Shown piece by piece: positions 1 through 12,303 of a DNA stretch of 12,303 bases. This DNA is from an uncultured Caryophanales bacterium. Lineage in GTDB: Bacteria; Bacillota_I; Bacilli_A; RF39; UBA660. Below the pieces are notes generated by a model. The model was not told the DNA's origin. It did no database searches and saw only the letters and a list, made by a program, of their open reading frames with translations. Every line of letters starts with the position of its first letter. Position 1 is the stretch's first letter. The stretch is taken from contig CAMKQS010000045.1 of the NCBI GenBank assembly GCA_946414975.1, positions 1 through 12,303 on the forward strand, written 5' to 3'. The position numbers and the translations under genes were made by a program.

Positions 1-3000
1 AGTTGCATAGCAACTATATCAGTTATATCCATATCTTTATTATTAATAATAACTTTAGTATTAAAAAATAAATCTGCTATTTTTACTTCTTCATTACTTA
101 CCTCATAAATTATAGCAAAATTAGGATGCATAATTATATGTGTATTATTTGGATTAAGATTATAATTATATGCAATATCACTAATTATATGATTGTTTCC
201 ACTAGTATCAATATCTATGTTTGAATATTCATTATCATTTAAAGACTCAAGTTTTTTCAATCTAAACAAATCGCTAGCTTTAAAATTATTATCATTATAT
301 TCTTTGTATATGTCATTGTGAATATATAAATTATTCTTTACAAATGATTTATCTTCTTTTTTGAATTTATCATTATATTCTCTATGTATGTCATTATCAA
401 TATAAAAGTTATTAATTATAAATGATTTATCTTTACCACTATCTTCTAATACATATTGTTTTATAGAATCATCAGTATATAATCCATTATTAAGGGCTAT
501 TTTAGGGTTATATGGTAAAGGTCTTTGTATATTAGAATCTTTTTTTAGAGTTGAAAAAGAACCTTTAATATTACTATACCCCTCACCTATAGTTACTTTT
601 TTTAAAACCATTCTATCATAATCTTCTTTAGTTATAATGCCTTTATCAAGCAATTCAAGATATTTTTTCTTATCTATTTCCATTAGTTCTTTTGCGCATT
701 TTTTATATACTTCTAAAACTTTATCAGTAAAATCATTCCTAATGCCATCATCTTCATGACCTCTTTTTACCCCTGATGCACGCATTTGCCTATCAGGTAC
801 TTCAATATTATCAAAACATAAAACATTTCCATTTCGCCATACCCAACTTTGTGCTATAATATTTCCTTCTTTATCTTTAACGACAAATACACGTCCATCC
901 TTTGATACCATACTATGCTGCATACACGATTCTGCTGCATCACCTAATGCCTGGCAGCAGTCAGTAAGTGTTCCTATTGCAAGAGCAAGAGGATCATCTA
1001 ATCTTAAGATCTCATATTCATAATCTAAATAAGTACTCTCAACTCTAGGTATACTACTGAATACTCTCTGTTTACCATAATTATATATATCTTGTAATGT
1101 ATTCACATCATTTTGTGAATACCCAGCAATTTGTGAAACAACTGCTAAATTTTCATTTCCTACTTGGATATTTTCATATTTATTATTTTCAACATAACTA
1201 ATAGCCAAATCCATAGTAAGATAACGATTACTATTAATAGCTTTTATATCAAAAAACTGTCTTTGAATATTGGCAATATTTTTAGATACTTTCTCATCAT
1301 TAATAATAGATTCTAAATTATTAAGAAAAAACTTTGTAAAATCTGGATCATATTGCATATTAAAACGACCAAACATACGGTGAATACTTGACTTTGCAAT
1401 AATTGGTGATGGGGTTATCCTTTTTAAAATGCCTCTTATACACATTATTGATCGTGGATATTTTTTATTGTCCAAAAGTAGCGTATATGACCCATCTTTA
1501 TTTTTATGATATATTTGCTCTAGTAAAGGCTTATTATCATCAAAGGCATAGTTTTCTTTTTTCAAAACAAACTTTAATGTAGCATATACTATTTCTTTAA
1601 TTTCAACATTATCAGCTTTATTTTCTTTTTCAGGATTTTCAATAGAAGCAAAATATGATTCAATGCTAGAATACTTAGATTCTAAATGTGTTGGTGTCTC
1701 AGTTAATAAAGATCTGAGTTTATTATATCCTGATTCATTATTATCAAAAACACCAAATGTATATGCAAGTTTTAATAGTGCATCTTTTTCTTCAGAATTT
1801 GTAATATTTGTTTTTTTAACAAGCATTGCCCACTTTACACTATTATTTAAAAATTTATCTATTTCCTCATCATCAAAATTTTGCATTACAACAATACTAG
1901 GTAAAAATTGACCTTTAGTTTTTTTATACCAATGCATTAATAATGAAATTTTTCCATAAAGTATGAGTTCTGTTACAGTCTCTGGATAACGAACACCTAA
2001 TTTTATTGCATCATCACGAAATAAGTCTAAATATTCTCGCATATTTGATTGTATTACTGCACCTCTTATAAGAGCAGCATTTAAATATGTTCCCTTTAAA
2101 TGTTCTAAATAATTAGAATATTTCTTTAAAAGTTCAAAATTAAAATTTGAACCATAAAAGGCATCTATTAATTCAGTTGGTAAATTAGAAGGTATAAATA
2201 ACTCTTTATAATCTCTTTTTAAGAATCCTAAATCAGTATCTGCATTATACTTTGCATATCCATTCATAATATCTTCAACAATTACATTTTCTATTTCTTT
2301 TTGAAAATGTTCAAAAGTAATATTTGATAACTGATATGTATAAGCATTTAAAGTATATAAATCACCATTTTTTTCTAATTTAAAATCTCTTCTTCCAATT
2401 AAATCAAGATAAGAACCATATTTTTTGCATAGATAAAGAAATTGCTCATTTCCTAATACTTTTATTAAATTAGAAATCACCTTATAATTTCCATTTTGAA
2501 GGCAAATATTCAAATTTTTATTCTTTAATATTTCAACTAATACTGAATTATTATAAATATCACCAAATGTAATACTATGTTCATAAAATAAATCGGTATA
2601 ATGAATTTTTTCATCTTCACTAAAATTACTATTAGATAAATCAAGAAATAACTCTGGATGTTTTTCTACAAAAGATGAATTTTCTTCTAGAAAGCGATAT
2701 TTTTTTCTTTGTTCTATTTTTTTTATCACATATTCTTCAATAGCAGCATCTATATCTTCTTTGGTACTACCCTTGAATTTAAAATCTCTCATATCTTCTA
2801 AAAAAGAACCATAATCAGTAAATAATTTTAGTGTAGCAATATTTCCAAATCTAGAGATATATCTCTTAATAAATATATTTTTTTCATTAAATAAATGTAT
2901 ATCAGTGCAATAAATAACCTTGCTTAAATCTTTATCTACTAAATAATTCACCCAGTCTTTATGTTTATTTAACAGACCAGGTTTTATTAATCCATGATAA

Positions 3001-3920
3001 AATTCTTCTTTTAATTCATCAGGAGCATCTTTATCAATAAAAATACTTGGATATTTTTCCCTAAATGGCCCTTCAATATTCTCATAACTAGGAAAACGTT
3101 GAAATCTACCATATGTACGCTGATCATTTAATGCCTCGGCTACATCATCTAAAAACTCTTGATATGTACCATTCTTTCTTATATAATTTTTTAATGTATC
3201 TAAAAATAGATAAACTCGATAGTTTTCTTCTTTAGATTTTATATAATCTATATAACCTAAGGTATCACTATTTTTAGTGTCTATATTAAAATTGCGCAAA
3301 TAATCTAGATTACAATTTTCTAAAATATCCAATTGTGTTTGGTGAGGGTTAATAAAAAAAGCATCTTCCCCATATTTAAGAATTCCATCAAGAACTTGAT
3401 CACTAGGTAGTATTTTAAAATTTAATGATTTCAAATCTGCAGGTATATCTAAATTACCATCATCATCATATTCCATATAATGTGGATTATCATATAACAT
3501 TTTTTTTATTTCTTTTCTAAATGCATCTTTAAAAGAAATAGTTGCATCTATTTTTCTATCTTCATTGGTATTTGCATCATATACTAAATTATTAATGTAT
3601 CTTATTGAAAACATAAATACATCAAAGTGATTTTGTAAAACATAACTTATATTTGCTTCACCAATAAAATCTATAAAACGCTCTATATCATCTCCATAAT
3701 TTGATATAGATAGTAAAGAATCGTGTTCTCTAAGTATCCTTATTCCATCCCATAATTTAGCAGGAATTAAACTTAAATCACTATTTATTAATCTATTTTG
3801 CAGTTCTAGATATTTATCTTTAGTATTAGCGCTATCATCATATTCAACTCTTGCATTAAGATAAATATCATTCATTTTTCTTTTTATTTCTTCAAATTCC
3901 TTTACTGTTAATTTATCCAT
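1..3920 (-). CDS. Giant repeat protein D with DCCQ/QSWVWR core (3' end cut off by window)
   Basis: The frame is open from ATG at 3920 to the left edge: 1306 residues without a stop. By alignment with paralogue A (5943-10613) only about 40 residues are missing. The start is supported by AGAGG eight bases upstream, 13 bases after the stop of the metallopeptidase gene, so it is the fourth gene of the unit. No signal peptide or membrane segment is seen, so it is probably cytoplasmic. Residues about 1-110 match the start of A loosely. Residues 285-655 hold three degenerate repeats. Residues about 670-945 match A closely (GQFLP, LLKLAYTFG, HRMFGRF, NIQRQF). The core is at 968-1045: LRLDD, D987-C988-C989-Q990, C999, H1002, DGRVFVV, Q1024-SWVWR and FDNIE ending at E1040. 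A lysine/asparagine/aspartate-rich tail contains a 26-residue duplication. I cannot name the family or its function. The beta-strand/helix pattern of the core loosely resembles a GNAT-like or PcfJ-like fold, which is only a guess. Confidence 0.85.
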   Translation of the reverse strand, partial: MDKLTVKEFEEIKRKMNDIYLNARVEYDDSANTKDKYLELQNRLINSDLSLIPAKLWDGIRILREHDSLLSISNYGDDIERFIDFIGEANISYVLQNHFDVFMFSIRYINNLVYDANTNEDRKIDATISFKDAFRKEIKKMLYDNPHYMEYDDDGNLDIPADLKSLNFKILPSDQVLDGILKYGEDAFFINPHQTQLDILENCNLDYLRNFNIDTKNSDTLGYIDYIKSKEENYRVYLFLDTLKNYIRKNGTYQEFLDDVAEALNDQRTYGRFQRFPSYENIEGPFREKYPSIFIDKDAPDELKEEFYHGLIKPGLLNKHKDWVNYLVDKDLSKVIYCTDIHLFNEKNIFIKRYISRFGNIATLKLFTDYGSFLEDMRDFKFKGSTKEDIDAAIEEYVIKKIEQRKKYRFLEENSSFVEKHPELFLDLSNSNFSEDEKIHYTDLFYEHSITFGDIYNNSVLVEILKNKNLNICLQNGNYKVISNLIKVLGNEQFLYLCKKYGSYLDLIGRRDFKLEKNGDLYTLNAYTYQLSNITFEHFQKEIENVIVEDIMNGYAKYNADTDLGFLKRDYKELFIPSNLPTELIDAFYGSNFNFELLKKYSNYLEHLKGTYLNAALIRGAVIQSNMREYLDLFRDDAIKLGVRYPETVTELILYGKISLLMHWYKKTKGQFLPSIVVMQNFDDEEIDKFLNNSVKWAMLVKKTNITNSEEKDALLKLAYTFGVFDNNESGYNKLRSLLTETPTHLESKYSSIESYFASIENPEKENKADNVEIKEIVYATLKFVLKKENYAFDDNKPLLEQIYHKNKDGSYTLLLDNKKYPRSIMCIRGILKRITPSPIIAKSSIHRMFGRFNMQYDPDFTKFFLNNLESIINDEKVSKNIANIQRQFFDIKAINSNRYLTMDLAISYVENNKYENIQVGNENLAVVSQIAGYSQNDVNTLQDIYNYGKQRVFSSIPRVESTYLDYEYEILRLDDPLALAIGTLTDCCQALGDAAESCMQHSMVSKDGRVFVVKDKEGNIIAQSWVWRNGNVLCFDNIEVPDRQMRASGVKRGHEDDGIRNDFTDKVLEVYKKCAKELMEIDKKKYLELLDKGIITKEDYDRMVLKKVTIGEGYSNIKGSFSTLKKDSNIQRPLPYNPKIALNNGLYTDDSIKQYVLEDSGKDKSFIINNFYIDNDIHREYNDKFKKEDKSFVKNNLYIHNDIYKEYNDNNFKASDLFRLKKLESLNDNEYSNIDIDTSGNNHIISDIAYNYNLNPNNTHIIMHPNFAIIYEVSNEEVKIADLFFNTKVIINNKDMDITDIVAMQ
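293..434 (-). repeat. 78-base imperfect tandem duplication inside gene D
   Basis: Bases 293-356 and 371-434 align without gaps at an offset of exactly 78 bases, with roughly four-fifths identical. They encode two copies of a 26-residue unit near D residues 1162-1213, each following the pattern DKSF-x2-NN-x-YI-x-NDI-x-EYND. The offset is a multiple of three, so the frame is kept. Paralogue A has only one, poorly matching, stretch here. This looks like a fairly recent in-frame expansion in the C-terminal tail. Confidence 0.75.
1956..3068 (-). repeat. Degenerate protein repeats in D (three units)
   Basis: D residues about 285-655 contain three related units starting near 285, 409 and 564. Each opens with a hydrophobic residue, then YP/HP/YK followed by an [IL]F[IL] triplet (SIFID, ELFLD, ELFIP). 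In the first and third units an acidic/proline phrase (DAPDELKEEFY, LPTELIDAFY) follows. Next come a predicted helix ending in WVNYL or YLEHL, and an LxxKxL or LGNEQFLxLxKKYGSYL-like helix pair. Spacing between the anchor positions is about 131 and 150 residues. The same theme occurs in A. The pattern suggests an alpha-helical solenoid-like scaffold; fold and ligand are unknown. Confidence 0.55.
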
Positions 3921-3933
3921 AAACAAAACCTCT

Positions 3934-5604
3934 TTATTTTTTCACACTCATTACTTCGTAATTATTAGCTACAAAAACATCAATATTTATATATATTTCT
4001 TTTGCTCTTTCAAGCTCTCTATAATATTCTATAACATCCGCATTATCTTTATCATTCTTAAGTTTATAATCTAACCCTCTATTCCACAAATAATCAACTT
4101 TATTTATAACATCAACTAATTCTTCAAAATTATCTTCACCTATATAAGAACTAAGAATATTTCTATCCGTATTAATTTTGGCATCAATAACAATACTACT
4201 ATATTTATCAAGTAATGGTCTTAAAATGTTTTTAGTAACTAATCCTGTATTACGGTCATTACCCTGATTATTTGTATATCTTTCTTCTATCAAATAAATC
4301 CCATTTTTATGTAAATATTCTACTGCCTCAGATGTAAATATATCATTAATAGTTTCATTAAATCTTTCATATTTACGATATCTTTTATCATATTTATTAT
4401 GTCCAGAAGAATTGTTACAGTCATCTATTAATTCAAACCCACACCCGTTAGGATTATCATCAACAATATGCCCATTTTCATGCATAAATGTTCTATCTAA
4501 AATTCCATAATCAAAAGGTCTTATAGTATAAAACATTAAAGAAAAATACCCATTTGAATTAGTTGCTCCTCCCATTGTAATACATACTCTTTTGTTTTTT
4601 ATCTTATCAATTAAATAATTATCTAAATCTTGATTAGAATCAATTTTATTTATAATATTTAAAAAATCCAATCTTTTAGTATAATACTTTTTTTCACATT
4701 CAGAATAATTTTCTTTGCACATTTTTTTTATTCTATCTATTAAATCTTGTTTTGGTATTAAATTTCTTACCTCAGCACTTTTTAAAAAATTTAAATAATT
4801 AAAAACATCTTGCTCAGTATGAAAACATGATAAATTATCTTTTCCAATGTCAAAAACTGGAGGTTCTATATTAAAAATTTGCAAGTATTCTATTTGGTCT
4901 GAAGCTAAAACAGCCTTCATAAATAAACTATTTTCAGTAGAAGATAACTCCTCCATATATTCTTTATCAAAACTTTGAACTAAACTATTATAGTTTAATT
5001 TACTATTCCAAGAAATATCAAAGAATATTTTATATACTTCTTCCTTAGATAGTTTTTCTAATCTCTCCTTTAATTCTAGTGGTATAACTGATAATAACTC
5101 ATTATATGTATAATCCATACCTTCTTTAAAAATTATATCTTTTCTATTATTATCTTCTTCAATAAATTTATAATACCTAAAAAAAGACTCCTTATATAAT
5201 ATAAATTCGCTTTTTAATTTATCATATATATCTTTATACCCCTTTATTTCTAACAATATAATAATATTTTCATCTTTTTCAAAAATAATTTCAAAGCGAC
5301 CAAAATTTGCTTTTAATATTTCATTAAGATTATTTTCCCTACTTAACTCTTTTAAATTTAGACTTTTATATTTAGATACATCATATCCAATTTGTTCTAA
5401 AAAAGAAATAGAAAGTTTATACTTTTTATATGCTAACAAATTATTTATATATTCTTCTAATCCACGTATATCAATATAAGTAAGATATAGTGCATTATTT
5501 ATTTTATGTTCAATTATATCATGATACTCACTACCATATACATGTGTATAAGCATCTATTACATACGGTTTTAATTTATCTAACTCTAGGTTTAATAAGT
5601 CCAT
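3934..5604 (-). CDS. Predicted thermolysin-like zinc metallopeptidase (gluzincin), gene C
   Basis: A protein of 556 residues starting at ATG 5604. The GGAGG five bases upstream fixes this start; a TTG at 5616 in the same frame is part of the ribosome-binding region and is unlikely to initiate. Residues 375-379 are HENGH, a HExxH zinc site with H375 and H379 as ligands and E376 as catalytic base. The segment ending at 421 reads NETINDIF, matching the NExxSD motif of thermolysin-type enzymes, so E417 is the likely third zinc ligand and D421 the supporting aspartate. The 38-residue spacing from H379 to E417 is longer than thermolysin's 20. An upstream strand (GGATNSNGYF, FYTIRPF) sits where gluzincins have their substrate edge strand. 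The first 330 residues are charged, helical and unrecognised. No signal peptide or propeptide is visible, so it is probably intracellular. It lies between B and D with gaps of 17 and 13 bases, so it is probably co-transcribed. The substrate is unknown; the other products of this unit are candidates. Confidence 0.85.
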   Translation of the reverse strand: MDLLNLELDKLKPYVIDAYTHVYGSEYHDIIEHKINNALYLTYIDIRGLEEYINNLLAYKKYKLSISFLEQIGYDVSKYKSLNLKELSRENNLNEILKANFGRFEIIFEKDENIIILLEIKGYKDIYDKLKSEFILYKESFFRYYKFIEEDNNRKDIIFKEGMDYTYNELLSVIPLELKERLEKLSKEEVYKIFFDISWNSKLNYNSLVQSFDKEYMEELSSTENSLFMKAVLASDQIEYLQIFNIEPPVFDIGKDNLSCFHTEQDVFNYLNFLKSAEVRNLIPKQDLIDRIKKMCKENYSECEKKYYTKRLDFLNIINKIDSNQDLDNYLIDKIKNKRVCITMGGATNSNGYFSLMFYTIRPFDYGILDRTFMHENGHIVDDNPNGCGFELIDDCNNSSGHNKYDKRYRKYERFNETINDIFTSEAVEYLHKNGIYLIEERYTNNQGNDRNTGLVTKNILRPLLDKYSSIVIDAKINTDRNILSSYIGEDNFEELVDVINKVDYLWNRGLDYKLKNDKDNADVIEYYRELERAKEIYINIDVFVANNYEVMSVKK

Positions 5605-5609
5605 ATTTA

Positions 5610-5614
5610 CCTCC
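5610..5614 (-). promoter_or_regulatory. Ribosome-binding site that decides the start of gene C
   Basis: GGAGG on the minus strand, five bases before ATG 5604. The in-frame TTG at 5614-5616 overlaps its first G. Ordinary initiation at the ATG is therefore far more likely, and the longer version beginning MEVN is an artefact. Confidence 0.85.
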
Positions 5615-5621
5615 AAAATAA

Positions 5622-5933
5622 CTATACAAAATTACTTATTATCATATCAAATTGTTTCTCCAATGATGAAAAATTAGATGGATATTCTGCATGTCCTATA
5701 TATTTTTTATTATCAATTACAAGATACCATGAATCTCCATCAATGTAACCTCTATTAATATATTCACATTTCCAATCATATGTAATTTTAATAATATTAA
5801 CTATAAATTCAATAATCAATTCAATTTTTACCATCTTAGTTTTATTATTATATGTAACTTTACATATATCATCAACTTCAATACTAATCTCAAAATTATT
5901 TTTTTTAAAATATATCTTTTTTATATCTAACAT
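5622..5933 (-). CDS. Small protein B (103 residues), function unknown
   Basis: ATG at 5933, with GGAGG upstream at a short spacing. The stop is TAG, 17 bases before the ATG of the metallopeptidase gene. Nine bases separate it from the stop of giant gene A, so it is the second gene of the unit. The product is acidic and beta-strand rich, with no signal peptide or reliable membrane segment (an I/V-rich stretch at about 38-50 is more likely a core strand). The C-terminal half reads YIDGDSWYL (63-71), then a charged turn, then EYPSNFSSL (83-91). The order 'DGxxWxLxI ... YPxNFxxL' recalls a recurring type of small clostridial protein of unknown role, from memory and unverified. Position and size would suit an accessory, adaptor or immunity subunit for A, C or D, but nothing in the sequence proves it. 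Confidence 0.8.
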   Translation of the reverse strand: MLDIKKIYFKKNNFEISIEVDDICKVTYNNKTKMVKIELIIEFIVNIIKITYDWKCEYINRGYIDGDSWYLVIDNKKYIGHAEYPSNFSSLEKQFDMIISNFV

Positions 5934-5936
5934 AAT

Positions 5937-5941
5937 CCTCC
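5937..5941 (-). promoter_or_regulatory. Ribosome-binding site of gene B with unusually short spacing
   Basis: GGAGG lies only three bases before ATG 5933, shorter than the usual five to nine. It sits directly after the TAA of gene A, so ribosomes finishing A could reinitiate here. No better start exists: the next methionine is at residue 34. Confidence 0.6.
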
Positions 5942-5942
5942 A

Positions 5943-8900
5943 TTATTTTATCTTAATTTGATTTTCAATTTTTATAGCACTATCAAACAATTCCTTTGCA
6001 TCACTATCAAGTTCTATAGTATCAAACTTGCTATTATTTATAATTTGTTTTAGAGCTAAAGATAATTGTTCTTCTACTATATTTGTAATATCTACCTTTT
6101 TACCATTTATTTCTACTTTATCATTAATAATGATATCATATAATTTAATTATATTATCATTAACACTATAAATAATTACAAAGTTTGCACTCTTTAATAC
6201 TTTAGTATCGGAAATGTTACAATTATAAGTTTTAGAAATAGCTTTCATAGGAATACTATCTTCCTCAAAATATTCACTAATCTCCGAATAATCATACTTA
6301 AGTCTATCAAAACTTATAATATTTAAAAGTTCTTTACTATCTAGTGAGTATTCATCAAGTATCTTATATTCATCATTGAAAACAGCTAAATTCCTACCAC
6401 CGTGAATAACACTGTTATCTACACTTTCTAAAACATATTGTTCTTTAGAATCATTAGTATATGGTCCGTAAGTTAACTTTACTGGGCCTTTATAATCTAG
6501 CGGATGTACAATATTTGTATCTTTTTTTGCATTATCTCTAATGACGTCTGCTATATCATTATAACCTAAACCAACTGTTACTTTATTCAATATAAACTTG
6601 CTATACTCATCTTCTGTAATAACTTTATTATCTAATAATTCTTTATATTTTTCTTTATCTTTTTCAATTATTTCTAATGCAGCTTGTTTATATATATCAT
6701 AAACCTTTTTAGCTATATATTCACCTTCATACCTTTCAAACACTTTATCAGGTATTTCAATATTATCAAAACAAATAGTATTTTTATTTCTCCAAACCCA
6801 ACTTTGAGCTATAATATTTCCTTCAAAATCTTTAACAACAAATACCCTTCCATCAGTGCTAGTCATAGAATGTTGCATACACCATTCCGCTTGATCACCC
6901 AACTCTTGACAACAATCAGTAAGAGTTCCAATTGCAAGGGCTAGTGGATCATCTAGTCTTAACATTTCATAGTAAAATTCATCAGTTTTACTCTCAATTC
7001 TAGGAATACTACTATAAACTCTTTGTTTTCCATAATTGTATATATTCTGTAGTACCGAAAATTCTTCTTGTTCATATCCAGCAATAGATGAAATTCTTGC
7101 AACATTATCATTAACAGTATCTAATTCAGAATATTTTATTGTTGATACATAATTTAATGCCATATCTAATGTTAGTTTACGATTACTATTTATTGCACAT
7201 ATATTTTTAAAATTTCTTTGGATACTTGCAATATTTTTAGAATACTTATCATTACTTAAAATAGTACTCAGGTTATTAAATAAAAATTCTCTAAATTTTG
7301 GATCATATTGCAATTTAAATCTACCAAATAACGAGTGTGCTTTAAATCCTGTTAATACTGGATAATTAATCGCAACTGTTAAACAAATATTTAGTGTGCT
7401 AAACACATCTTTATTAACATTTTTTTCTATTGTAAGTTCATATTCGCTATCATTTTTCTTAGTATATATTTTATCAATTAATTTATCACCTTTGATTCCT
7501 AAAGCATTTCTAACTTCTCTAAAAATATAACTATTATCTTCTTTTTCTTTTAATAATTCATAAGTTTCTTTAGAAATAGTTTTAGGTGATGTGGTAAGTA
7601 ATTCATATAGTTGATTATATCCTTTTGAATCATTGTCAAAAATTCCAAACGCATATGCAAGCTTTAAAAGTGCATCAACAGTCTCATCAGAATACGAAAA
7701 CTCTTTAATACTCATAAGCTTACTCCATTTACGCCCATTTGCTAAAAACTTATCAGCCTCAGAAATATCAAATGCTTGCATTACTACATTATTTGGAATA
7801 AACCTTCCACCTGTTTTATCATACCATCTTTTTACCAAGTCAACACTTTCTTTAGAATGTAACATCTTATTAATAATATCAGGATATCTGAATCCAAGTT
7901 TTAAACCATCATTTTCACCTAATATATTAAAATAATGAGTTATAATATCTTTGTCATATTGTCTATTTCGTAAAAAAACTTGTGATATTCTTTTATCCTT
8001 TAAATAAGGCAACCACTCAGGATGAATACTAATGGTATTAAAATTTATATCATTAGATAAATTTGGATAATAACTATAATGTAAAATATCGGGCGCATTT
8101 TCATCTAGAAATAATTCTGGATGATTTTTCTTCAAAAATTCCGGTGCATCATGACGATAATAGTTACCACCTAAATAACAATATTTAACAATTGCATCCT
8201 CAATAGCTGTACAATAATACTCTAAAGGTTCTCCTTTTTCTAGTGAATTTTTTGAATCAAAGAATGCATCAGATAAATATTCTTGTGCATTTTCTAAATA
8301 TGGGCCATACTTATAAAGAGCTTTTAAATAAGTTTCATTACCCAAATAACTTATTAAATTGTAATAAATATCATAATCGCTATAATAAAAATTATTATCT
8401 GAAGAACTTGTATTATAATTATTTCTTGAATCCATTATTAATTGTAAATTTTTATTTTTTAATATATCTATTAAAATAGGATATTGTTGAATAAATGTAG
8501 AATCTATACAGTAATCATAAAATTCATCTTCAATATTCTTTACAGTACTTTTTTTATATTTACTATTTAATAATTCTATATCTTCTTCTGTTAAAAAGAT
8601 TTGGGGATATTTATTATAGAATTCGGGAACATCTTTTAAATCTTTATAAACTATATATCCATCTTTTCTATAATCAATGATTCTAATATAAATATACTCT
8701 ACTATTTTATTATCAATTTCTTCTTTAGACATATTCTCATTTAAACTAAAAAGACAACTAAAACCAATTCTTTTAAATACAAAACCATATTTAGTAAATA
8801 TTTCAAGCAATGCCGGATTACCAAATCTATTAGAATAGTATTCTAAAAAATTTTCTTCTGTACTAATAATGTCATTTTCCATTAAAAATTCAAAATTACC

Positions 8901-10613
8901 TTTTATAACACACTTTAAATTCTTATCATATAAATATTTAATATAATTTTTATATTCATATATTATTTTGCTATTTATATTACAATAATAAAATGTTGTT
9001 TTTAATTCATCTGGTGCATTCTTATCCATAAATATACTAGGATATCTTTCTCTAAATGGCCCTTCTACCTTATCTAAATTCCCTAAATATATATTTCCAT
9101 GATACATAAGTTGTTCAATCCATTCAACAACTGAATTACAAAAATCATTATAATTTATCATATTTGCATTTAATTTTTCTTTACGATTTGTTAAAACAAC
9201 ATAAACTTGTTTTAGAATGTCACGAGGAGAATCTAATGATAATATGCCTGTTTCGTTACATAATTTTTCTAAATTATTTATATTAAAAGTATCTAAAACT
9301 TTATGTTGCTCATCATCTAAAACTAAGTCATACCTAGAATGATGAAAAAAATCATTAATTGTATTATATGAACTTATTATATTGATATTCATAGAATTAA
9401 AATTACTATGAAGTATATATTTTTTCTTACCATTAATATCCATATAACTTTCTATAAGATATTGATGTTTATAAATATAATTTTTTATTACTTTTAAAAA
9501 CCATCTTTCAAAACTATCGTTATTTAAATTAGTAGGAATATCTTTGCAATAATCTTTAAAAAAATAAATACTAGCATCATTAAAATATTCAAATACATCA
9601 TGATGATATTTTAAAATTAATCTAAGTGGTTCATATCCTACTTGATTAGCAAAGTTTATTACATTCTTATTAAACCTAGAGATAAAATAAACAAATGGAG
9701 CACCTTTAAATAGGTCAATATACTCAAGAAAATCATCGTAATTAACACTTTTTGAATACCAATCATTTCTTAAAAAATCCGGCATATTAACATTTCTTAA
9801 GTATATCTCTTCATGATTTTCTTTATATTTCTCTGGAGCATTATTTATAAGAATCCAATCAGGATCATATGGTGTCTTCTTTAGTATAGATTTAGTTAAA
9901 ATATTATCTAAATATTTAGCAACACTATTAACGCTAATAACTTCAAGTACTTTCATAAATGTACTATCAAAATCTTGTAAATTGTTGCCTACCTTATATT
10001 CATATAATACTTTAAAAATACTTTCAGCATATTCATAATCATCATGATAGTATTCATATAACTCTAGTGCTCTAGTAAACCCTAAACAGTTTATAAATTC
10101 AATGTAATGTATATCATTATTTAAATGTTTAACAATGTTTTTGTCTCTTAATTCTTTTAATTGCTCAAAATCTAAACTGACTAAATCATCAAAAGTTAAT
10201 AAAGCACCATCGTATTTATCTTTAATAGATTTAGAAAATCTATTTGATAAAAATATATCAGAATTATCTAAATAAACTTGCCTATCAAATGTCATTTCAA
10301 ATGTTTTTCCTTCAATTGATTTTAGATTAATAATTTTACAGTTTCTAAAATCAGCATATCCATTAATATCCATATAATTAAAATTAATTGTAGCATTAGT
10401 TTTTGAAAAATCAGCAATATGATTTTCATCACTTACAATTGTTAAGCCTTGCCATTTGTTTGGAAAAATACGTCCTAAATCATAAGATAATAAATTATTT
10501 AAAGTTTTATAGTATTCATCTAATACATCATTACCATCATTTATTTTATTTACAAGATTAATTAGTTTTTCCTTATACTCTAAAAAAGTATCCTGATTCA
10601 TTACCCCGTTCAT
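5943..10613 (-). CDS. Giant repeat protein A with DCCQ/QSWVWR core (1556 residues)
   Basis: First gene of the four-gene unit. ATG 10613 has GAGGGG eight bases upstream; a second ATG four codons on has poorer spacing. There is no signal peptide or membrane segment. Regions in order: an N-terminal helical part aligning with D (FPNKWQGLTIV to LIPAKLWDGIRIL). Next is a segment at about 68-170 absent from D, with DINGYADFRNCKIINL and LTFDDL. Degenerate repeats follow at about 257-345, 519-615, 658-757 and 819-920. From about 936 it matches D closely (GRFIP, LLKLAYAFG, HSLFGRF, NIQRNF). The core carries D1233-C1234-C1235-Q1236, C1245, H1248, DGRVFVV, Q1270-SWVWR and FDNIE ending at E1286. The tail ends in a K/E-rich helix. 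Core identity with D is far higher than in the repeats, pointing to an active site or partner surface. Family and function are unrecognised. A GNAT-like reading of the core (strands FVVKD, GNIIAQSW, CFDNIE, then a helix) is possible, but no acetyl-CoA loop is evident. Confidence 0.92.
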   Translation of the reverse strand: MNGVMNQDTFLEYKEKLINLVNKINDGNDVLDEYYKTLNNLLSYDLGRIFPNKWQGLTIVSDENHIADFSKTNATINFNYMDINGYADFRNCKIINLKSIEGKTFEMTFDRQVYLDNSDIFLSNRFSKSIKDKYDGALLTFDDLVSLDFEQLKELRDKNIVKHLNNDIHYIEFINCLGFTRALELYEYYHDDYEYAESIFKVLYEYKVGNNLQDFDSTFMKVLEVISVNSVAKYLDNILTKSILKKTPYDPDWILINNAPEKYKENHEEIYLRNVNMPDFLRNDWYSKSVNYDDFLEYIDLFKGAPFVYFISRFNKNVINFANQVGYEPLRLILKYHHDVFEYFNDASIYFFKDYCKDIPTNLNNDSFERWFLKVIKNYIYKHQYLIESYMDINGKKKYILHSNFNSMNINIISSYNTINDFFHHSRYDLVLDDEQHKVLDTFNINNLEKLCNETGILSLDSPRDILKQVYVVLTNRKEKLNANMINYNDFCNSVVEWIEQLMYHGNIYLGNLDKVEGPFRERYPSIFMDKNAPDELKTTFYYCNINSKIIYEYKNYIKYLYDKNLKCVIKGNFEFLMENDIISTEENFLEYYSNRFGNPALLEIFTKYGFVFKRIGFSCLFSLNENMSKEEIDNKIVEYIYIRIIDYRKDGYIVYKDLKDVPEFYNKYPQIFLTEEDIELLNSKYKKSTVKNIEDEFYDYCIDSTFIQQYPILIDILKNKNLQLIMDSRNNYNTSSSDNNFYYSDYDIYYNLISYLGNETYLKALYKYGPYLENAQEYLSDAFFDSKNSLEKGEPLEYYCTAIEDAIVKYCYLGGNYYRHDAPEFLKKNHPELFLDENAPDILHYSYYPNLSNDINFNTISIHPEWLPYLKDKRISQVFLRNRQYDKDIITHYFNILGENDGLKLGFRYPDIINKMLHSKESVDLVKRWYDKTGGRFIPNNVVMQAFDISEADKFLANGRKWSKLMSIKEFSYSDETVDALLKLAYAFGIFDNDSKGYNQLYELLTTSPKTISKETYELLKEKEDNSYIFREVRNALGIKGDKLIDKIYTKKNDSEYELTIEKNVNKDVFSTLNICLTVAINYPVLTGFKAHSLFGRFKLQYDPKFREFLFNNLSTILSNDKYSKNIASIQRNFKNICAINSNRKLTLDMALNYVSTIKYSELDTVNDNVARISSIAGYEQEEFSVLQNIYNYGKQRVYSSIPRIESKTDEFYYEMLRLDDPLALAIGTLTDCCQELGDQAEWCMQHSMTSTDGRVFVVKDFEGNIIAQSWVWRNKNTICFDNIEIPDKVFERYEGEYIAKKVYDIYKQAALEIIEKDKEKYKELLDNKVITEDEYSKFILNKVTVGLGYNDIADVIRDNAKKDTNIVHPLDYKGPVKLTYGPYTNDSKEQYVLESVDNSVIHGGRNLAVFNDEYKILDEYSLDSKELLNIISFDRLKYDYSEISEYFEEDSIPMKAISKTYNCNISDTKVLKSANFVIIYSVNDNIIKLYDIIINDKVEINGKKVDITNIVEEQLSLALKQIINNSKFDTIELDSDAKELFDSAIKIENQIKIK
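7854..9845 (-). repeat. Degenerate protein repeats in A (about four units)
   Basis: Four related units are anchored near residues 268, 525, 670 and 832, separated by about 257, 145 and 162 residues. Visible cores are PFRERYPSIFMDKNAPDEL, EFYNKYPQIFLTEED, FLKKNHPELFLDENAPDIL and the weaker KYKENHEEIYL. Later landmarks in each unit are a short helix with a YL or PEWL pair and an LGNE/FGN-x-L-x-KYG helix. The second unit here (PFR-x-[KR]YPSIF) is the closest match to the first unit of D, so the repeats existed before the A/D duplication. Confidence 0.55.
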
Positions 10614-10640
10614 TGCTTCATCCCCTCATTTAACACTTAT

Positions 10641-10649
10641 ATTTTATCA
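10641..10649 (-). promoter_or_regulatory. Probable extended -10 promoter for the A-B-C-D unit
   Basis: The minus strand reads TGATAAAAT, a TG-N-TAAAAT extended -10 element, about 28 bases before ATG 10613. It would give a leader of roughly 20 bases containing the GAGGGG site. No convincing -35 hexamer is seen 17 bases upstream, which is tolerable for an extended -10 promoter. Its place immediately after the terminator of the preceding unit supports it. In such AT-rich DNA chance matches are common. Confidence 0.45.
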
Positions 10650-10677
10650 TGTTTTTTATTATTATTCTATTATTTAT

Positions 10678-10702
10678 AAAAAAAGATATGTTAAAACATA
10701 TC
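10678..10702 (-). terminator. Rho-independent terminator after the folD-nuclease unit
   Basis: On the minus strand GATATGTT-TT-AACATATC forms a perfect eight-pair stem, probably with its inner pairs open, followed directly by seven T residues. It lies 50 bases after the nuclease stop codon. The stem is AT-rich and therefore weak, as is common in low-GC genomes. It separates the folD-nuclease unit from the A-B-C-D unit. Confidence 0.75.
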
Positions 10703-10751
10703 CTAATTTTATAACACTAACACATTAATTAATACTTAATATATTTTCTGT

Positions 10752-11510
10752 TTATTCAAAACTTGCTTCTAAAATCATATCTTGAGTAATTGGCTTTGAT
10801 AAGTCATATAACTTACCATCCAATGTCCATCCCGCAAATGTTTTTCCTTTAGATTTTGGATTACTAATAACACTTACTCTACTACCATTATTAACTTCTA
10901 TTTCATCCAATACTTTAACGTTCTTAAATAATACAATATATTTTTTATTTTTATAATTTTTTACTCTATATTCATTATACAAATTAATTTTATTTTCTAT
11001 TGCTTTTTTCTCTGATTTATATAATTTATCTAAATAAGTAAGATTTGTATAAACATATTCAACATAAGCATATCCGTTTTCAATAAGTAATTCTTGAAGA
11101 AGATTATCATCTACATATACCCATACTAAATGTCTTTTATATTTATCAGTTTTCATACTAGTCTTTTCATAACTAACATAAATATTTTTTGCACTTTTTA
11201 ATTTTTTACAAGTATAATTACTAGCATCTTTTCCATATCTTTCTACAACTGGATTTACCTCAGGTGTGTTAATTCCAAGAAATCTATAAGTATAAACATT
11301 ACCGTTTTCTTTAAATTGTACAGTATCACCATCAATACAGTTTACAAGTTCTACTTTTATTTTTTTTGTTGTTTTACTATCATTACTAATAACATTATTA
11401 GCACTCTTCAAATACTTATTAAAATCAATATGATAAACACCTGATACTACAGCAATAAATAATACAAGTAAAAAACCAAAAATTATTTTAAATGAATTTG
11501 AAAATTTCAT
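10752..11510 (-). CDS. Exported or membrane-anchored thermonuclease (SNase fold) with InlB-type B-repeat tail
   Basis: A protein of 252 residues predicted to hydrolyse DNA or RNA outside the membrane. Residues 9-25 form a hydrophobic helix after a lysine-containing start: a signal anchor or signal peptide with no clear cleavage box. The staphylococcal-nuclease domain spans about 51-185. IDGDTV (D60, D62) supplies metal ligands, R76 in TYRFLG corresponds to SNase R35, E84 in NTPE to E43, and R126 in DKYKRHL to R87. The third metal-side aspartate, D40 in SNase, is asparagine (N81). Residues about 191-252 (VLFKN, VNNG, GKTFAGW, YDLSKPIT, ILEASF) match the beta-grasp InlB B-repeat/Listeria-Bacteroides repeat pattern found on surface proteins. 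Its ATG overlaps the TGA of folD by four bases and has only a weak AAGAAA-type ribosome site, so translation is probably coupled to folD. The likely role is extracellular nucleic-acid degradation for nutrients or matrix handling. Confidence 0.92.
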   Translation of the reverse strand: MKFSNSFKIIFGFLLVLFIAVVSGVYHIDFNKYLKSANNVISNDSKTTKKIKVELVNCIDGDTVQFKENGNVYTYRFLGINTPEVNPVVERYGKDASNYTCKKLKSAKNIYVSYEKTSMKTDKYKRHLVWVYVDDNLLQELLIENGYAYVEYVYTNLTYLDKLYKSEKKAIENKINLYNEYRVKNYKNKKYIVLFKNVKVLDEIEVNNGSRVSVISNPKSKGKTFAGWTLDGKLYDLSKPITQDMILEASFE

Positions 11511-12303
11511 TTTTTCTTATTCTGATAACAATAAATTGCATTTTTTATAAGCATAGTAACAGTCATTGGACCTACACCGCCTGGAGTTTTAGTTATTAAT
11601 GATACTTTGTCAATTACGTTATCAAAATCTACATCTCCACTTATTTTTCCTGTATCATAATTAACTCCAACATCAATAACAACCGCACCATCTTTAACCA
11701 TATCTTTAGTAATAATATTATTTACACCTGTTGCACTTACTAAAATATCGGCATCACGTGTATATTTTTCTAAATCTAATGTTTTAGAATGACAAACTGT
11801 TACTGTTGCATTTTCATTTAAGAATAGTTGGATTAGTGGCTTACAAGTTAGTTTTCCTCTACCTACTAATACTACATGTTTTGATTCTATCTCTACATTA
11901 CTTCTTTTTAACATTTCTATTACTGCCATTGCAGTACAAGGGACTAAAGTCTTCCTGCCACTTATTAATCTTCCTGCATTTATATCTGTAAGCCCATCAA
12001 TATCTTTACTATTAATTATTGTATTAATTAATCTTTTTTCATTATACCCATCAGGGAGTGGTAATTGTACAATAATTCCATTAACATATTCATCATTATT
12101 TAACTCTTTTATTTTATTAATAACAGTTAATTCTGATGTGCCTAACTCATACTTAAAATGTCTAAAATATATACCTACTTCATCACAAGCCTTTTCTTTT
12201 GCTTTAATATACGAATTGCTAGCATCATTATCCCCAATTTGAATAACTGCAATAGATGGTTTAATCATTTCAAATTTTATACTTTGTTTTAATTCAGCTC
12301 TAA
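11507..12303 (-). CDS. folD: Bifunctional methylenetetrahydrofolate dehydrogenase/cyclohydrolase FolD (5' end cut off)
   Basis: The cytoplasmic enzyme interconverts 5,10-methylene-, methenyl- and 10-formyl-tetrahydrofolate using NADP(H). In frame the protein already reads RAELKQSIKFEM before the ATG at 12268, and LRAELK-like sequence is normal near the FolD N-terminus. That ATG is therefore internal, and the true start lies beyond the right edge, perhaps 15-20 residues away. In-window numbering from the first full codon: Y31 and K35 (YIKAK, the catalytic YxxxK), Q79 in VQLPLP, D102 in DIDGLTDINAG, PCTA near 122, GRGKLTCKP from 147 in the nucleotide-binding region, and PGGVGPMT at 240-247. The two variations are PCTA for the usual PCTP and GRGKLTCKP for the usual GRSxxVGxP. 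Catalytic residues are intact, so it should be active, though cofactor preference may differ. The gene ends in TGA overlapping the nuclease start. Confidence 0.96.
   Translation of the reverse strand, partial: RAELKQSIKFEMIKPSIAVIQIGDNDASNSYIKAKEKACDEVGIYFRHFKYELGTSELTVINKIKELNNDEYVNGIIVQLPLPDGYNEKRLINTIINSKDIDGLTDINAGRLISGRKTLVPCTAMAVIEMLKRSNVEIESKHVVLVGRGKLTCKPLIQLFLNENATVTVCHSKTLDLEKYTRDADILVSATGVNNIITKDMVKDGAVVIDVGVNYDTGKISGDVDFDNVIDKVSLITKTPGGVGPMTVTMLIKNAIYCYQNKKK

Follow-up and report, generated by a model that had tools for sequence, protein, structure and literature searches.

Comparison with homologous loci showed the locus to consist of what appear to be two independent, interleaved gene pairs, one formed by the giant genes A and D with a partner gene termed E and the other by the small gene B with the predicted zinc metallopeptidase gene C. 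The window, i.e., the whole stretch of 12,303 nucleotides of DNA that was analyzed, contains A, B, C, and D as far as base 1, and in this lineage a single B-C pair sits between two A/D paralogues whose relationship is distant. The first-pass annotation had read A, B, C, and D as a candidate multigene system, to be given up if homologues of A/D and C rarely co-occurred. That grouping is unsupported, since C adjoins A/D only in the window and its close relative L001 among 72 A/D-family loci (a lower bound, because many of the 72 contigs are short) and the co-occurrence of the two families is at chance level. Among 146 genomes of the order, 6 contain a strong A (A1 match below 1e-200) and 7 a strong C (below 1e-30), with a single genome, G001, containing the two together (P = 0.26); the cuts were chosen after the lists had been seen, and up to three candidate places per genome were scored for A and up to nine for C. 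When all matches are counted, the numbers rise to 27 genomes for the A family and 18 for the C family, with 4 genomes carrying both (P = 0.75). Any C match was found in 14 of 50 genomes chosen for carrying A-family loci.

The gene calls themselves stood as first described. ORF analysis found A, B, C, and D to be real, co-directional, and closely spaced, and with the ATG starts the intergenic distances come to the stated 9, 17, and 13 bases (Table 1). Plausible ribosome-binding sites precede the ATG starts of the packed genes; an alternative TTG start of C at 5616 would yield 560 amino acids. Among the relatives compared, the closest is L001, a contig that belongs to the MAG of an uncultured member of the Bacillales and has DNA ~92% identical to the window, and comparison with it gave dN/dS values of 0.33 to 0.39 for all four ORFs, indicating purifying selection. 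The single promoter proposed for the genes was not confirmed: in a scan of positions 3800 to 10900, promoter-like matches were moderately above those of shuffled sequences (83 versus a mean of 67.7; SD, 7.8), and the list of stronger sites, which stopped short of 23 weaker ones, contained none in the gap between A and the SNase-like gene. The same gap holds a palindrome followed by seven T residues, a putative end of the upstream transcript, which the terminator scan did not flag (10702 to 10685). Upstream of A are the SNase-like gene (10752 to 11510, minus strand), with a hydrophobic N terminus and a List_Bact_rpt-like end, and a FolD gene (11507 to 12268, minus strand); both also precede A in L001. 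For A, B, C, and D, no family exceeded its cutoff in Pfam, NCBIfam, PHROGs, or PADLOC; A and D matched SHOCT at scores below the cutoff.

Table 1. Positions and properties of the genes and sequence features in the window
Feature	Position	Strand	Description
Gene A	5943..10613	-	1556 aa, ATG start; N-terminal part, three repeats, helical linker, two tandem GNAT-like domains
Gene B	5622..5933	-	103 aa, ATG start; small partner of C; no family match
Gene C	3934..5604	-	556 aa from ATG; predicted zinc metallopeptidase
Gene D	1..3920	-	ATG at 3920; at least 1306 aa, running past window base 1; distant A paralogue
Palindrome, then T7 (seven T)	10685..10702	-	Between SNase-like gene and A; putative end of upstream transcript
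A repeat copy 1	8697..9059	-	Residues 519-639; inside diverged mosaic block (about residues 437-660)
A repeat copy 2	8235..8624	-	Residues 664-793; family profile
A repeat copy 3	7845..8138	-	Residues 826-923; family profile
D repeat copies	Residues 285-396, 416-529, 566-690	-	Family profile
A GNAT-like domain 1	6396..7019	-	About residues 1199-1406; structure model
A GNAT-like domain 2	5946..6371	-	Residues 1415-1556; structure model
Core motif TDCCQ...AQSWVW...CFDNIEIP	6750..6929	-	A residues 1229-1288
D tail	3..1064	-	Homologous to both A GNAT-like domains; limits approximate, from A-D alignment
C HExxH (H375, E376, H379)	4468..4482	-	Conservation in homologues
C ERFNETIND (E413-D421)	4342..4368	-	Candidate third zinc ligand E413 or E417; conservation

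An ORF following A or D was found to be recurrent, mostly 320 to 440 amino acids in length, and 48 such ORFs form one cluster. This gene, E, is ~340 amino acids long, overlaps the stop codon of A/D, and lies past the edge of the window. In L001, the start of E overlaps the end of D by 11 nt, and no E is found directly behind A; in the window E would be expected just past base 1. Profile searches placed E immediately 3' of 50 of the 77 core ORFs with room for it, these being the core ORFs of at least 300 amino acids in L001 to L072 (82 in total, 5 excluded for lacking 300 bases of room), which are not independent because some loci are near-identical or contain split genes. The other 27 include A of L001, first copies of tandem arrays (L014, L015, L043, and L052), and divergent members (L060 to L062 and L066 to L072), and E is found directly upstream in three further loci (L034, L050, and L062). 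In the 146 genomes of the order, E (E value up to 1e-20) was found in exactly the 6 with a strong A, each time adjacent to it (Fisher P = 8e-11); in one of the six, G023, the E match spans 185 of 337 positions.

The closest known relatives of E are the GPR domain of P5CS and gamma-glutamyl phosphate reductase (ProA). The E profile matched the ProA structure 1o20 (E value, 4.8e-24) in two stretches, chain residues 23 to 250 and 332 to 379, skipping chain residues 251 to 331; E is like ProA over the aligned stretches but lacks the catalytic-cysteine segment. The E match to chain 7f5t, which we take to be Drosophila P5CS, stops at residue 581. The catalytic residue of Drosophila P5CS is given as C598 in passages of two articles (PMC8963878, PMC11061531). 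The bridging segment of E comprises 44 residues in 120 of 121 sequences, with cysteine in 0 of 121, and in a second set of E sequences a cysteine occurs in the segment in 1 of 28 rows (L029), at a different spot. Six E proteins scored 19.1 to 64.2 bits against NCBIfam proA (TIGR00407), well below its curated cutoff of 317.45. The family numbers 447 proteins at an E value up to 1e-20 in a large protein collection; among the 120 listed, E is always short (324 to 349 amino acids), and the only descriptive source name is "hypothetical protein." None of 8 E-bearing genomes contains a ProA over the cutoff, compared with 12 of 14 control genomes. Judged from its sequence, E looks like a noncatalytic derivative of ProA, and it may bind NAD(P).

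The gluzincin-like site noted in C was borne out, as HExxH and a downstream glutamate are conserved in the family and present in C of the window. Among 60 C homologues, conservation is at least 90% at each of H375, E376, H379, E413, N416, E417, and D421, and the large protein collection contains 92 homologues in all. C of the window lacks a segment of ~55 to 60 residues that is present in C of L001. No convincing sequence match to C was found in Pfam or the PDB, and a Foldseek search with modeled C returned no match at an E value up to 0.001; the closest known systems are helical gluzincin peptidases of the M2, M3, and M32 types. Profile comparison of C with A gave a probability of 0.9%, i.e., no shared similarity. 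Two further arrangements of C-family genes were observed: three in tandem with no recognized B (L145:2558-7625) and one present as two ORFs, likely a broken copy (L135:8827-10578).

Of the layout first proposed, a large repeat protein with a small partner and a protease, the B-C part proved recurrent, and the partner of the giants was found to be E instead. B stands immediately before C at 12 of 20 usable C places and overlaps it at 9 of the 12, a conserved overlapping two-gene order of the kind used to recognize toxin-antitoxin pairs. Places were counted when distinct, with 200 bases or more of upstream sequence and a C ORF of at least 480 amino acids (E value up to 1e-30); G160 and G122 (no room) and G136 (split ORF) were left out. 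At the B-C junctions of L138, L134, and L140, the equivalents of the L001:9121-9143 region, the overlap is ~17 to 29 nt and suggests that translation of the two genes is coupled. B homologues matched nine Pfam families with one member each (best E value, 4.3e-4). A constant association of B-C with the A clade was considered and rejected: the nearest relative of A, in L002, is followed by a 76-amino-acid ORF and a partial 194-amino-acid ORF, neither of which matched the B or C profiles, and the genome of L002 carries B-C elsewhere.

The kinship of A and D (36% identity over 1,295 columns) and their shared repeat scaffold hold as first noted. The repeat is 100 to 130 residues long, with three clear copies in each protein scoring domain E values of 2e-21 or better against a profile built from the A/D family itself. 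A recent tandem duplication was rejected as the source of the two genes: in a tree of 60 tails, A groups with a gene of another species, L002 (support, 100/100), and D falls in a different clade from A (support, 99/97). The C-terminal core, described as nearly invariant, is the best conserved part of A/D, with a mean pairwise identity among 28 sequences of 0.80 for A residues 1219 to 1290 versus 0.25 to 0.40 for segments of residues 1 to 925. The core has 534 homologues in the large protein collection. It stands behind BspA-type leucine-rich repeats in L151, in which one of three tandem genes (2014 to 11492) was scanned and the other two start alike. Conversely, L146 to L149 and L152 have the A-type scaffold with no core behind it, and Pfam gave no other C-terminal domain for them. 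These exchanges of front part and core, together with the drop in conservation ahead of the core, fit a variable recognition part joined to a constant putative effector. One A-family gene (L013) is on a contig filed as a Methanobrevibacter MAG, probably as contamination.

Structure prediction, which covered the A tail and C, modeled the A tail as two GNAT-like domains, with the strand and helix order of GNATs and structural matches to them. By sequence, neither A nor its tail had a convincing match in the PDB. Among the closest known systems are the tandem GNAT-fold acetyltransferases (VipF, Eis, and similar proteins, with RibT for the second domain), although the rmsd over both domains is large, about 18 to 19 Å. 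The GNAT pyrophosphate-binding loop, Q/R-x-x-G-x-G/A, is placed between strand 4 and helix 3 in a passage of one article (PMC12273574). This coenzyme A (CoA) loop was present in 0 of 69 rows for domain 1 and in 0 of 56 rows for domain 2; unlike the VipF/Eis-type GNATs, the A/D family lacks the loop, has a 900-residue scaffold in front, and has E as a partner. The A/D tail has seven invariant residues, and C1234, C1235, C1281, D1283, N1284, and E1286 are identical in 69 of 69 sequences.

Comparison with L001 points to the locus being a mosaic of alleles. FolD is 90 to 95% identical throughout, and A is ~99% identical to residue 437, 69 to 77% to residue 637, 89% to residue 687, 96 to 100% to residue 1187, and 91 to 92% to residue 1337. 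B-C is mostly 67 to 91% identical, and D is 98 to 100% identical to residue 606 and 73 to 92% to residue 756, with a length difference near residues 1156 to 1206. Some blocks of the C proteins P0122 to P0127 are like those of the window and others like those of P0128. Together, the block patterns against L001 and among the C proteins point to exchange among alleles. Gene conversion between A and D was rejected as the source of the mosaic, the A-D identity not being raised in the mosaic blocks.

No known system was recognized at the locus, in agreement with the first reading: no PADLOC family matched A, B, C, or D at an E value up to 1. Of the proteins selected beside A/D, 123 of 181 were scanned, and no PADLOC model and no other defense, phage, or other family recurred in more than 2 of the 123; the single PADLOC matches that exist come in many cases from housekeeping-like families. 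A defense- or phage-island setting was rejected, as A/D loci are found among ordinary genes with no recurrent family, a result that speaks neither for nor strongly against a role in conflict. The suggested resemblance to conflict systems finds only indirect support, in the mosaic alleles and the exchangeable front part, and the genes lack a defense-island context. By tblastn, A had no match in phage and plasmid records and C none in phage records, and of 222 pattern matches of the C alignment in viral contigs, 0 were confirmed. The uncharacterized phage protein A0A7G9A3X2 (BFVD) matched the fold of the A tail (E value, 3.4e-11). The giant-phage contigs L073 to L075 resemble A/D in that the pattern DCCQ...AQSWVW...FDNIE is present in L073 (gene at 7217 to 10546) and a variant of it in L075 (8402 to 10426), but the proteins differ in having other N-terminal parts and V in place of C1281. 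The gene after the core gene of L075, on the other strand, is presumably PcfJ-like; PcfJ-like proteins gave weak viral fold matches to the A tail (E value, about 0.1), and A/D differ from them in having no sequence match to the Pfam library. No description of the A/D-E or B-C pair was found in the open-access literature.

Our preferred reading, to which we assign a probability of roughly 35%, is that A/D is a giant of the recognition-effector type, with its ProA-derived partner E as the gate, and that B-C is an independent protease pair. The analysis shows how the genes pair, that E lacks a segment and A/D the CoA loop, which residues are conserved, and that the alleles form a mosaic; the target, chemistry, gating, and biological role are inferred. 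The repeats of A/D would bind a changing protein target, and GNAT-like domain 1 would act on this target through a cysteine-centered site, C1235 with D1283, N1284, and E1286, by a chemistry other than ordinary CoA-dependent transfer. E would serve as a noncatalytic subunit, gating the giant and binding either NAD(P) or a phosphorylated ligand; C may cut a protein, with B restraining or guiding it. Recognition subject to changing selection, for example, in conflict with phages or neighbors, would be consistent with the allele mosaic.

One alternative to separating the pairs, developed from the original proposal, is a single conflict system of four genes, with C acting on the giants or together with them. 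The tight spacing on one strand in both the window and L001 speaks for it, as does G001 with its strong A and C, but with C so rarely beside A/D, with A and C co-occurring at chance level and lacking profile similarity, and with B-C and A/D-E each found without the other, we consider it improbable. A toxin-antitoxin or enzyme-inhibitor pair inserted by chance between two A/D genes, with C as a toxic protease and B as its antidote, would account for the small gene coming first and overlapping the large one at 9 of the 12 paired places and for the patchy distribution (18 of 146 genomes, with a second copy in G001). Against it, no B is recognizable at 8 of 20 C places, B matched no toxin or immunity family, and several C relatives stand in tandem in L145 without B, and this reading of B-C is doubtful.

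For A/D-E, the alternative is a housekeeping or metabolic complex of reduced genomes, in which A/D is a scaffolded acyltransferase and E retains a ligand-binding role inherited from proline or arginine metabolism. E is related to ProA and yet none of the 8 E-bearing genomes has ProA over the cutoff, the loci are among ordinary genes, and the ORFs are under purifying selection; we nevertheless find such a complex unlikely, given that just 6 of the 146 genomes sampled from the order have strong A and E, that the catalytic-cysteine segment of E and the CoA loop of A/D are missing, and that the front part is variable. It could also be argued that the assembly of mixed strains produced both the mosaic and the unusual arrangement as artifacts, L001 being a metagenome assembly. 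The identical A-B-C-D order in the window and L001, the block patterns in C alleles from several separately assembled contigs, and the presence of E after the A/D core in many MAGs make this explanation improbable.

Extending the preferred reading of a gated recognition-effector giant beside an independent protease pair, we tentatively suggest that A/D-E could be an undescribed modular recognition-effector class, with swappable A-type or BspA-like repeats, a CoA-independent, cysteine-using GNAT-like domain, a ProA-derived pseudoenzyme gate, and alleles shuffled by recombination in gut populations, and that B-C could be a second, independent conflict module inside it. The grouping suggested by gene spacing alone is corrected. 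The conserved two-gene unit A/D-E brings together hundreds of unnamed proteins from uncultured Bacilli and Clostridia, mostly of gut type. None of the family libraries used names the unit as such, and it provides a test case in which a GNAT-like domain lacking the CoA loop is tied to an enzyme relative from which the catalytic segment is missing.
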